From the NCBI GenBank assembly GCA_030697555.1, contig JAUYPV010000017.1, forward strand, positions 1-64,000: DNA of 64,000 nt. Direction: 5' to 3'. This document shows, one piece after another, positions 12,904-15,949 of the stretch; the stretch's first letter is position 1, and each line of letters opens with the position of its first letter. Made by a program: the position numbers and the translations under genes. The DNA comes from Hyphomonadaceae bacterium (lineage in GTDB: Bacteria; Pseudomonadota; Alphaproteobacteria; Caulobacterales; Hyphomonadaceae). Under the pieces are notes generated by a model that was not told the DNA's origin, made no database searches, and saw only the letters and a list, made by a program, of their open reading frames with translations.

Positions 12904-14274
12904 TTGAACGATAACCCACTCGACAAACTCGGCGAAGAGATCGCCGAGGGCGCCGCTTCGCCCGTGGCGGGCGTTCTGTCCTCCGTGGTGGCGGGCGAGG
13001 CGCTGACCGCGGTAGGCGGCCGGCGGCGGGTACTGGTCGAACTGCCGGCCTATCTGTTCGTGCAGATCGCCTGGTTCGCCGCGTTCGGGCTGCAGACCGT
13101 GCTCTTCCCGTACATGCTGAAGAACATCCTCGACGTCTCGGGCACGATGCTGGGTGTAGCGCAGATGGCGCTGGCGGCGCCGTCGGTGGTGTTCATCCTG
13201 CTGGGCGGAGTGGTGGCGGAACGCGCGGACGGACGGACGCTGCTGGTGCTGTTCCACGTCCTCGCATCCGTGCCCGCCGTGGCGCTGGCCTTCGCGATGC
13301 GGACGGAGGGACTCGAATACTGGATGATGCTCGCCTACGCGATCGCAATGGGCACGATCGGTGCGTTCATGATGCCTGCGCGCGATGCGATCCTGAACGA
13401 AGTGGTGGAGAGGCGGCGCGGCGCCGGGTCGACCATCACCCTGCAGCAAGGTGTGGCTTTCGCAACGCTGGCGCAGTTCGCGGCACAGATCGTCGGACTA
13501 TGGATCGGCGGCTTCGCCAACTGGTCTGGCGTGTGGCCGCTGCTGGGCGTGCAGGCGGTGATCGTCGCGCTGGGGGCTATTGCCGCGATCTTCCTCGACC
13601 GTGGACGCATGGTGCAGACCGGACGCAAGGGCGCCGGCGCCGTGTTCGGCGACATTCTCGACGGCATGCGATGCGTGCGCGCCAACCCGATCCTGCTGTC
13701 GATGGTGATATCGATGTTCGGCGTCGGCGTGTTCGTCATCGGCGCGTTCCTGGTGATCCTCCCGATCGTCAATGCCGACGTCTATGGATTCGAGTCCGGC
13801 GGCCTCAGGAACATCTTCGTCACCTTCTGGGCGGGTGCGTTCTGTTCATCCATTGCTATCTCCCGCTTCCGCAACCTGCGCCGGCCGGGCCGCATCCTAC
13901 TGGCGGCGCAGTTCATCGGTTCAGCGGGAATACTGTTCCTCACGACGCACACGCCCTACCCGGCCTTCATTGCGCTGGTGTTCGTGTGGGGGCTCGCGGC
14001 AGGCATCTCGATCATGATGAGCCGCAGCATCGTCCAGGCAGCTGCCCCGCCGCATATGCTGGCGCGCGTGCTGTCGATCTACCAGCTCGGCTTCATGGGT
14101 GGAGCGCCGGTGGGCGCGGCGCTGATGGGCATCGTCGCCGACCGCGCAGGCCCACAGCTTGTGATCCTCGTGCCTTCGATAGGCATGCTGGCGATGATTG
14201 TCTGGATGACGTTCTTCACGCCGATCTGGGGCATGCGAGCCCCCGAGACGCACGAAGGCGGCTCGGGGATTTAG
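12904..14274 (+). CDS. Major facilitator superfamily transporter
   Basis: A 456-residue inner-membrane transporter with about 12 helices. The MFS loop motif GGVVAERADGRTLLVLFHVLAS lies near residues 98-120. The fold resembles drug or siderophore exporters of the MFS_3/EntS group. The start is TTG at 12904, selected because GGAGGG lies at 12892-12897 with a 6-base spacer and the upstream in-frame stretch is Arg-rich and unlike protein. The first ~45 residues are a cytoplasmic extension. Substrate unknown. It converges with the EF-hand gene, 14 bases between stops. Confidence 0.85.
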   Translation: MNDNPLDKLGEEIAEGAASPVAGVLSSVVAGEALTAVGGRRRVLVELPAYLFVQIAWFAAFGLQTVLFPYMLKNILDVSGTMLGVAQMALAAPSVVFILLGGVVAERADGRTLLVLFHVLASVPAVALAFAMRTEGLEYWMMLAYAIAMGTIGAFMMPARDAILNEVVERRRGAGSTITLQQGVAFATLAQFAAQIVGLWIGGFANWSGVWPLLGVQAVIVALGAIAAIFLDRGRMVQTGRKGAGAVFGDILDGMRCVRANPILLSMVISMFGVGVFVIGAFLVILPIVNADVYGFESGGLRNIFVTFWAGAFCSSIAISRFRNLRRPGRILLAAQFIGSAGILFLTTHTPYPAFIALVFVWGLAAGISIMMSRSIVQAAAPPHMLARVLSIYQLGFMGGAPVGAALMGIVADRAGPQLVILVPSIGMLAMIVWMTFFTPIWGMRAPETHEGGSGI

Positions 14275-14288
14275 CGACGCCGAACAGC

Positions 14289-15257
14289 TCAGGCTGGCGG
14301 TAGATATTCCGCCAGCGACAGCCTGTTGTCCCTGTTCACATCCAGCTTGGTGAAGCTGGCCTTCAGCGCTTCGGACGAGATAGTCGGTCCGCCCTGCACC
14401 CGCACGTCAGGCGTATCGGGTTCGCCGGCGATCTTCGGCAGCGGCGGCGATACGATCTTCTCGTATTCGGCGAGGGTGAGCGTCTTGTCGTTGTTCTGAT
14501 CGAGGATTTCGAAGCCGCGGGTCAGCATGGCTTTCTGGCGCGACTGGTATTCGGCGAGGCTTACCTTGCCATCCTTGTTGGTGTCGAACGTGTCGAACTC
14601 GTTCTTGCGGATATCGTCCAGCGATGGCGGGTTTGGCGGCGTCGGCGGCGTGGTGGAGGCGCCGTCACCCGACTGGACCCGGACTTCGTGCCTGGAAACG
14701 AACTTGTACTCACTCTGCTGCTGCGCGCCGTCCGCGCCGTCGGGCAGCCAGAACGAGAAGGCCTCCTGCTTGATCTCGGGCTTCTCGTTGGCGGGCGGCG
14801 CATTGGCGCCGTCTTTCGATGTCTTGTGCACGCGGGTCTCGACGATGACGTCCTTGCCGTCTTCGTTCCCGCCCTTCGGCCCGGTGAATTCATCGGCGGA
14901 CAGCATGCCGTCGCCGTTCTTGTCGAGCGTCTTGAACTGGGTGGCGAAGTCGGGCGCGGCGGCGCTGGGCAGCGCGGCGAAGGTGGCGAGGCCGACTGCG
15001 GCGATGCCGCCGGCGGCGATCCGCAGACCATAGCGGCGCACGGGTTGGGGAAGTTTCATGATGAGCGTCCTTGCCTGTTGGGGTGTCGGCCGCCCACGCT
15101 CGTCGAGATAGGTCTGGACGGAGGTGCGAACCACTTCGCTCGCTGTCGTCCCGTCTTCCCGGCAGGCGGTCAGGAATGCCTGCTTGGTCTCGTAGGGGAT
15201 GCGCACTTCCAGGGTTTCGGATTTCTTTTCCCTGCGGGGTCGTTTGTCGTCGGTCAT
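14289..15257 (-). CDS. Ribbon-helix-helix / transmembrane / EF-hand fusion protein
   Basis: Encodes 322 residues with an unusual domain order. Residues 13-55 form an Arc/MetJ-type ribbon-helix-helix domain (TLEVRIPYETKQAFLTACRE then TASEVVRTSVQTYLDER). One hydrophobic helix follows at about 76-98, ending in an Ala-rich PSAAAP. Beyond it lie four EF-hand calcium loops: DKNGDGMLSADE (112-123), DTNKDGKVSLAE (225-236), DQNNDKTLTLAE (253-264) and DVNRDNRLSLAE (306-317). The topology suggests cytoplasmic DNA binding and periplasmic Ca2+ binding in one chain. The start ATG at 15257 includes the complete first strand. If the helix were cleaved as a signal, the two halves would separate. Confidence 0.85.
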   Translation of the reverse strand: MTDDKRPRREKKSETLEVRIPYETKQAFLTACREDGTTASEVVRTSVQTYLDERGRPTPQQARTLIMKLPQPVRRYGLRIAAGGIAAVGLATFAALPSAAAPDFATQFKTLDKNGDGMLSADEFTGPKGGNEDGKDVIVETRVHKTSKDGANAPPANEKPEIKQEAFSFWLPDGADGAQQQSEYKFVSRHEVRVQSGDGASTTPPTPPNPPSLDDIRKNEFDTFDTNKDGKVSLAEYQSRQKAMLTRGFEILDQNNDKTLTLAEYEKIVSPPLPKIAGEPDTPDVRVQGGPTISSEALKASFTKLDVNRDNRLSLAEYLPPA

Positions 15258-15499
15258 GAGGCGCTCATCCCCTTCGCGTGGCGGCCGCTTCCATCTGGGG
15301 TGCGCCGCTCAAGGACTCCCAGCGAATAGCCGCCGGGGCGCCACAGATGTCGCGCCCGGTCGCGGCAGGATCATGGCAGGCCCGCCTCCAGCCTCGGGGA
15401 AAATCCGTCCGGACGCCAGAAAAAGCGTGTCCGGACACGCCTTGCGCACGGTTTGCCGGGGAATATGGTCTGCTCAGACAACCGATCGGGAACCCCTTC

Positions 15500-15949
15500 A
15501 TGCGCAATGTGAACTTCAGCGAGCTCGAATCCCTGGTGGGGACCGCGGTGGGCGAGTCCAACTGGCACCAGATCACCCAGACGCAGGTGAACAAGTTCGC
15601 GGAAGCGACCGGCGATCACCAGTGGATCCACGTCGATGTCGAACGCGCCACCAAGGAGCTCGGCGGCCCCATCGCCCACGGTTACCTGACGCTCTCCCTG
15701 CTGCCGATGTTGGCCGCCCAGATCATGCGGGTCGAAGGCGTCTCGCGCGGGATCAATTTCGGCTGCAACAAGGTGCGCTTCACCAGCATGGTTCCGGTGG
15801 GCTCGCGCGTGCGGCTGAAGCAGAAATGCCTGTCGGTCGAACCCCGCGCCGGCGGCAAGCAGATAACGATGGAATCCACCATCGAGATCGAGGGCAAGGA
15901 CCGCCCCGCCTGTGTCGCCGAGTCGATCGGCATTCTCTACGGCGCCTGA
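15500..15949 (+). CDS. MaoC-family (R)-specific enoyl-CoA hydratase-like protein
   Basis: A 149-residue single hot-dog protein. The hydratase-2 motif is present as FAEATGDHQWIHVDVERA, with catalytic Asp39 and His44, followed by GPIAHGYLTLSLLP. It resembles the NodN/MaoC branch that hydrates trans-2-enoyl-CoA to (R)-3-hydroxyacyl-CoA, feeding lipid or PHA metabolism. The start ATG at 15500 is the first that leaves the family N-terminus; the upstream in-frame sequence is not conserved-looking. It is divergent from the EF-hand gene across a 242-base gap. Confidence 0.88.
   Translation: MRNVNFSELESLVGTAVGESNWHQITQTQVNKFAEATGDHQWIHVDVERATKELGGPIAHGYLTLSLLPMLAAQIMRVEGVSRGINFGCNKVRFTSMVPVGSRVRLKQKCLSVEPRAGGKQITMESTIEIEGKDRPACVAESIGILYGA

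Follow-up and report, generated by a model that had tools for sequence, protein, structure and literature searches.

Arc, RelB-DinJ and CopG are small, soluble proteins of the ribbon-helix-helix (RHH) fold, in which alternating strand residues read a palindrome and tandem sites serve dimers. E. coli PutA is an RHH autorepressor whose association with the membrane relieves repression. In ToxR and CadC a cytoplasmic DNA-binding domain, one hydrophobic helix and a periplasmic domain are carried in one chain, and membrane-bound transcription factors of the SREBP type are released by proteolysis.

The protein described here is encoded in a 64,000-nt stretch of a Hyphomonadaceae genome (contig JAUYPV010000017.1, positions 1 to 64,000; hereafter the window) and shares features with each of these systems. 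As in PutA, which gave the top row in structural comparisons of the RHH model, an N-terminal RHH domain sits in a larger protein and would repress its own gene; PutA, however, is a soluble enzyme that binds the membrane reversibly on substrate, whereas in the window protein the RHH is followed by a probable signal peptide and then by a predicted exported protein. The layout corresponds to the three parts of ToxR and CadC, with an RHH in place of their winged helix-turn-helix, and, unlike those proteins, the family has a signal peptidase I-type site, a proposed internal start in many members and a variable exported domain. With Arc, RelB-DinJ and CopG the family shares both the fold and a palindromic tandem operator, but those proteins are small and soluble, whereas the window RHH heads a probable signal peptide. 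The combination of a DNA-binding head, a membrane segment and a protease site recalls the SREBP type, except that the expected protease would be the general signal peptidase I and that, in Caulobacteraceae, an operator-bearing neighbour encodes one.

A further parallel comes from a related bacterium: in the CaBP-SigV circuit of Caulobacter, CaBP, a 133-residue protein whose predicted signal peptide spans residues 1-21, works together with an ECF sigma factor and links an exported EF-hand protein to gene regulation, but that signal peptide leaves no space for a preceding RHH, unlike in the window protein (PMC13171946). The original prediction had held that no system of this type is described, which agrees with full-text searches of open-access literature (subscription papers and preprints lie outside them). 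There, RHH in combination with EF-hand or transmembrane gave no match, none of the matches listed for RHH or CopG with signal peptide, signal peptidase, EF-hand or membrane/TonB looked on topic, and among the matches listed for prokaryotic EF-hand proteins none appeared to describe an RHH fusion. The matches listed for the 10-mer TGTCCGGACA concerned eukaryotic topics by title, and those for GTCCGGAC with Caulobacter were off topic.

Results

One open frame joins an RHH domain to EF-hands

The window ORF lies at 14289-15257 on the minus strand and encodes 322 residues from an ATG start with 0 internal stops. The ORF itself, Pfam and a family profile confirm the predicted presence of an RHH domain, one hydrophobic helix and four EF-hand loops in this single chain. 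The features of the locus are as follows.

14289..15257, minus strand: whole ORF (long product: RHH, proposed signal peptide, EF-hands), from translation and homologues with equal frame
15093..15227, minus strand: ribbon-helix-helix domain, residues 11-55, from profile match, AF2 model, superposition and covariation
15068..15072, minus strand: Shine-Dalgarno-like AAGGA, 8 nt 5' of the internal ATG, from sequence and family test
15057..15059, minus strand: internal ATG (Met67), proposed second start, from sequence and family test
14289-15059, minus strand: proposed short product, 256 aa, from Met67
14964..15032, minus strand: hydrophobic segment, residues 76-98 (about), h-region of the proposed signal peptide, from sequence and AF2 model
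14958..14969, minus strand: PSAA, residues 97-100, proposed signal peptidase I site with the cut after A100, from motif
14889..14924, minus strand: EF-hand loop 1, residues 112-123, from Pfam and sequence
14550..14585, minus strand: EF-hand loop 2, residues 225-236, from Pfam and sequence
14466..14501, minus strand: EF-hand loop 3, residues 253-264, from Pfam and sequence
14307..14342, minus strand: EF-hand loop 4, residues 306-317, from Pfam and sequence
15428..15437, unstranded: operator 1, TGTCCGGACA, centre 175 nt 5' of the start codon, from motif analysis
15407..15414, unstranded: operator 2, GTCCGGAC, 22 bp from operator 1, from motif analysis
15500..15949, plus strand: divergent MaoC-like gene, from Pfam, with its start codon read from the sequence

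The fusion of the RHH to a predicted exported EF-hand part in a single chain is borne out by full-frame homologues. Matches to the window protein were obtained in 45 of 101 genomes (its own genome counted), and in 11 other genomes a single open frame runs from residues 1-7 to residues 320-322 at 40-61% identity; among the 101 genomes the N-terminal block is also present outside the window's genus and family. The equal frame in many genomes rules out an assembly or frameshift artefact in the window. In one genome (L017, G011:C28:23530-24488) the orthologue is found in two frames that meet near residue 197-202, likely as a result of a frameshift or sequencing error.

No second copy was found in the window's genome, where the next best match (E 0.005) is confined to the EF-hand region. 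Pfam placed four of the five neighbours (MFS, MaoC, prolyl oligopeptidase and DUF2336) and gave no match for the other. A functional tie to neighbouring genes in Hyphomonadaceae was considered and rejected, only gene order being shared (uppP-like and glutamate synthase-like genes, named by eye). Scanning of 14260-15560 revealed no sigma-70 promoter, and no match pointing to plasmid carriage was found.

In the EF-hand part PF13202, PF00036, PF13499 and PF13405 all score above the Pfam cut-off, and the four loops read as D-x-N-x-D...E, from which Ca2+ binding is predicted. The protein falls below the cut-offs for XopAW effectors (NCBIfam NF041410, 41.4 bits versus 120) and Lanmodulin (NF053806, 32.1 bits versus 135). 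Across the family, EF-hand models match 94 of 138 members and TonB_C matches 8 of 138, the 138 being the 145 cluster representatives minus ORFs cut by a locus end; EF-hand counts were taken from Pfam, as a regular expression was too strict. Other members have exported parts that appear beta-rich by eye. The exported parts of L032, L084, L104 (second member), L112, L132, L137, L138 and L178 look TonB_C-like, again by eye, and at some Henriciella loci a TonB_C-like member adjoins an EF-hand member.

The family extends well beyond the window's genome

The window protein belongs to an alphaproteobacterial family. A profile spanning the RHH and signal-peptide regions matched at least 104 of 299 genomes of the order, at least 5 of 385 in a draw from the class and at least 13 of 398 in a draw from the phylum, where the draws overlap, the own genome is counted in each, and the counts are lower bounds because at most 12-16 candidates were scored per genome. 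A scan of contigs yielded 124 relatives from 141 pattern hits, with 80 kept; by title these belong to Hyphomonadaceae, Caulobacteraceae, Parvularculaceae, Maricaulaceae and Kordiimonadaceae, with a few Hyphomicrobiales and one Altererythrobacter. The 194 non-identical members collected form an uneven sample, since loci were drawn from best-hit lists. Caulobacteraceae members are 103-250 aa long (median 112, n=46) and consist of an RHH, a hydrophobic segment and usually one EF-hand-like loop. Both parts are under purifying selection, with a median dN/dS of 0.07 in the RHH and 0.15 in the exported part over 52 pairs, which have members in common and are not independent.

Assignment of the N-terminal domain to the RHH fold draws on profile and model comparisons. 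The single sequence gives a weak Pfam match to RelB (E 0.012, under the cut-off), and Pfam RHH models match a minority of members (RelB 23 of 138, RHH_1 20 of 138). The 51-row family profile produced seven PDB matches at E<=10, the best being DinJ at 2.5e-4, and all are RHH proteins, whether by name or by fold. Modelled by AF2, the first 103 residues form helices at 22-35 and 39-55, with block pLDDT of 93-97 over residues 21-50, and the RHH strand is absent from this monomer model; the whole-protein model, with a mean pLDDT of 53, was for that reason left out of fold searches. The RHH model aligns without gaps to the PutA RHH (2rbf; Z 5.8, 44 residues) and to Arc (Z 5.4, 45 residues), rows within 1 counting as tied. 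For the N-terminal model VIA-align gave a best Z of 5.8 and nothing at Z 8 or more, and Foldseek nothing at E<=0.001, its top rows being mostly RHH proteins. In the superposition, strand residues T15, E17 and R19 fall on Arc 9, 11 and 13, which we take to be Arc's DNA-contact residues.

A palindromic operator covaries with strand residue 15

A palindrome is strongly enriched in the 160 nt upstream of family genes (145 cluster representatives of 187 members). GTCCGGAC is found there in 73 of 145 representatives versus a shuffle mean of 0.5, and TGTC-N2-GACA in 81 of 145 versus 0.3. Within 250 nt upstream, 127 of 193 members carry TGTCCGGACA with at most one mismatch, 90 of them exactly, at a median of 101 nt before the start, and a profile anchored on the site in 98 representatives reveals a weaker second copy with its centre 22 bp away. 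It is by position, not by genome-wide number, that the operator stands out. The window's 5-Mb genome has two copies of the exact 10-mer TGTCCGGACA and two of its reversed control, and the 10-mer copy away from the family gene falls within an ORF; exact palindromes in 28 genomes number 133 versus 100 for the reversed control and are hardly enriched. A large palindrome regulon was accordingly not seen among those genomes. The tandem arrangement is found a single time in the window's genome; of 61 family genomes 10 have it, versus one genome for the reversed control, and by position 8 of the 12 listed tandem places are at the window gene or an orthologue. At other genes near family members GTCCGGAC lies within 220 nt in 15 of 387 cases, the positives including some antisense or overlong ORFs. 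The 66 of 193 members that lack a site within one mismatch comprise 26 from Caulobacteraceae (25 of these with a site at lepB), 15 with GTCATGAC, and 25 that fit neither group.

At the window locus both operators lie inside the divergent intergenic region 15258-15499, which is common to the RHH gene and the MaoC-like gene, so that co-control of the latter is possible. The centre of operator 1 is ~67 nt 5' of the MaoC-like gene's ATG, nearer than to the RHH gene.

Residue 15 and the operator centre vary together. Lysine at this position is paired with an AT centre (GTCATGAC) in members at 14:0 and other residues with a CG centre at 97:0; the corresponding figures for representatives are 10:0 and 75:0. 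These tallies cover 191 of 193 members, two without the strand motif having been left out; the Fisher tests were limited to sequences whose operator centre is unambiguously AT or CG, namely 111 of the 191 members and 85 of 144 representatives. One of the 17 K15 members has both centres, one has none and one has CT; both centres also occur in two non-K members. When the tree is built with residue 15 masked, there are four changes in each trait, and across supported branches all three independent pairs agree (3/3; sign test p 0.25, too few for significance); the covariation rests on three to four independent changes. Taken together with the Arc superposition, it is good evidence that the RHH reads a TGTCCGGACA-type operator. 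Given the operator upstream and the residue-15 covariation, it is very probable that the RHH is a DNA-binding domain controlling its own gene, which supports, at the level of sequence, the direct transcriptional control proposed originally.

Among the members with both K15 and GTCATGAC, the exported parts of L201, L204, L214, L221-L223, L229 and L238 are beta-rich by eye and without EF-hands; in L229 both operator centres are present.

The hydrophobic helix ends in a conserved signal peptidase I-type site

A site conforming to signal peptidase I rules follows the hydrophobic segment in 141 of 143 representatives. At the predicted sites position -1 is Ala in 139 of 141, -3 is Ser or Ala in 129, -4 is Pro in 97 and -2 is variable, with the raw column counts inflated because the choice of site favoured the residues counted. 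The motif P-[SATV]-x-A is found in 98 of 143 representatives versus 17% in shuffled segments, and A100 is invariant in the 51-row alignment, independently of site choice. With such a site at its end, the helix is probably a cleaved signal peptide. A short, positively charged n-region at the N-terminus fits the product that begins at Met67; in the long product, 66 further residues, the RHH among them, come first. An uncleaved, ToxR-like anchor, the preferred reading at the outset, is disfavoured by the conserved P-[S/A]-x-A site and by a proposed second start that would make an ordinary secretory precursor, and these sequence features favour instead the alternative mentioned at that time, cleavage of the helix by signal peptidase.

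The second start is a candidate feature of the family outside Caulobacteraceae, where 86 of 108 representatives have a linker Met before the h-region and 56 of 108 also have a well-spaced ribosome-binding core; in Caulobacteraceae the linker Met occurs in 5 of 36 representatives and the core in 1. In a test on 144 representatives, of which 91 carry a linker Met, a Shine-Dalgarno (SD) core precedes 57 of 91 linker Mets versus 62 of 144 annotated starts, with controls of 28 in 441 for other in-frame Mets and 319 in 3261 for non-Met linker codons. Duplex energies likewise separate linker Mets from other Mets (Mann-Whitney p 2e-18), and the SD cores are spread over the three codon phases (29, 16 and 12), which makes protein sequence a poor explanation. 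A more stringent null, in which the given residues are recoded synonymously, separates the sites less clearly, with mean energies of -6.8 versus -4.6 kcal/mol and an individual p<0.05 in only 16.5% of 121 members. The Met67 product would resemble an ordinary secretory precursor, that is, a plain secreted EF-hand protein.

In several pairs, though not all, involving L026, L030, L031, L034 and L112, synonymous sites change less across the linker and signal-peptide region than across the exported part, a pattern that conservation of a ribosome-binding site in this region would produce.

In Caulobacteraceae the operator also marks an adjacent lepB gene

A LepB-like signal peptidase I gene lies convergent to the family gene at <=2 kb in 43 of 47 Caulobacteraceae members and at about 2.5 kb in one further member. 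For the remaining three, the contig of L103 ends in the gene, L057 has no lepB in 4 kb, and L193 shares its genome with another member, L179, which adjoins lepB. The pair occurs, for example, in Caulobacter ginsengisoli (L060) and Phenylobacterium aquaticum (L095). All 45 lepB rows adjoining the family (44 distinct genes, since L151 and L165 are one gene) have the conserved Ser and Lys of LepB, the catalytic residues of this enzyme; the paralogue is intact. An exact or one-mismatch operator lies upstream of 44 of these 45 rows (L110 is without a site, and L106 and L114 have a one-mismatch site only), in tandem at 21 or 22 bp spacing in 34 of 45. Among lepB genes not beside the family, the operator was found at 0 of 28, these being the ones that show the lepB motif out of 30 lepB loci. 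All 24 Caulobacteraceae members that adjoin lepB without an operator of their own have GTCCGGAC at lepB, and in G073 the main lepB (L257) is without a site while the paralogue adjoining the RHH gene (L151) has one.

No operator was found at the lepB of the window's own genome (L281). In the window's family, where 20 lepB regions were fetched (L287 without the motif), only two of 13 genomes with the lepB motif have a site, namely G009 (GTCCGGAC) and G046 (a one-mismatch GTCATGAC-type). With its own lepB free of the operator and few sites in its family, the link to the peptidase is indirect for the window gene.

Two lepB genes stand in tandem in a genome of the same genus (L285, G009:C54:193250-196100), and GTCCGGAC precedes the SM motif of each by about 290-300 nt.

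Discussion

We lean, by a narrow measure, towards a model in which an RHH repressor rides on a cleavable Sec signal peptide ahead of an exported EF-hand protein and reports on its export or processing. The elements supported by sequence are an RHH predicted to read the palindrome at its own gene or at a lepB paralogue, a peptidase I-type site, and an internal start. For the remainder we infer repression rather than activation, the opposite sign being possible, and that the state of the signal peptide sets how much RHH is available for DNA binding. RHH dimers would bind the tandem TGTCCGGACA-type palindromes 22 bp apart at the family gene and, in Caulobacteraceae, at the dedicated lepB paralogue too. 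Unprocessed precursor would hold the RHH at the membrane, much as membrane association does with PutA, leading to derepression, and cutting followed by clearance of the RHH-signal-peptide stub would allow the RHH to repress. The resulting negative loop could fit lepB expression to processing demand in Caulobacteraceae and the output of EF-hand protein to export in the window's lineage, where the internal start would also yield EF-hand protein without an RHH.

A more specific form of this model, which we hold tentatively and at somewhat less than an even chance, is a gauge of signal peptidase I capacity: the repressor head forms the front of the signal peptide, so that one molecule would be both a substrate of the peptidase and a regulator of the peptidase gene or of its own cargo. 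Under the capacity gauge the second start would uncouple cargo from regulator, and the EF-hand just past the cleavage point may render translocation or cutting dependent on Ca2+, in which case part of the earlier idea of a Ca2+ response would survive.

That idea in its original form, an uncleaved transmembrane one-component sensor whose helix is an anchor and whose periplasmic EF-hands bind Ca2+ and alter RHH-operator binding, we consider doubtful. It accounts for an RHH and EF-hands in one chain alongside an operator and a DNA-reading residue, for the EF-hand matches in 94 of 138 members, and for the one EF-hand-like loop kept by nearly all of the short Caulobacteraceae forms (L110 excepted). 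It sits poorly with the conserved peptidase I-type site and with the internal start in the window gene and in 56 of 108 representatives outside Caulobacteraceae, and the same RHH and operator are used with TonB_C and other exported domains. A simpler arrangement, in which the RHH is an autorepressor leader and expression of the exported protein is limited through feedback by the product, with no signal conveyed by membrane state or cleavage, is in our judgement slightly less likely still. The operator does adjoin the family's own genes and no large regulon appeared in 28 genomes (133 versus 100 for the reversed control), but if free RHH were enough, it would be odd for 104 of 299 genomes to keep it fused in frame with a signal peptide, and the 24 Caulobacteraceae members that adjoin lepB without their own operator have one at lepB. 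As for the RHH being an antitoxin or a structural head rather than a transcription regulator, the domain does resemble the RelB/DinJ type; with 0 toxins among the five neighbours scanned, and in view of the operator and its covariation, we regard this as highly improbable.

To our knowledge, the means by which bacteria adjust signal peptidase I to the demand for export are largely open, and the presence of one operator at the family gene and at a signal peptidase gene hints at a possible new mode of protein-export monitoring. Under the export-reporting model the family would provide a candidate sensor together with its defined operator, a residue that may set specificity, a linked target gene that has the conserved Ser and Lys, and minimal versions of ~110 residues. 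One frame may moreover give both a DNA-binding regulator and, from the internal start, a secreted EF-hand protein, a pairing that routine annotation could miss.

At L020 (G013:C9), in a genome of the same genus, and also at L245, both tandem operators are kept while the RHH and signal-peptide part is seemingly lost and the EF-hand end left; L020 seems to be a natural deletion of the RHH head.
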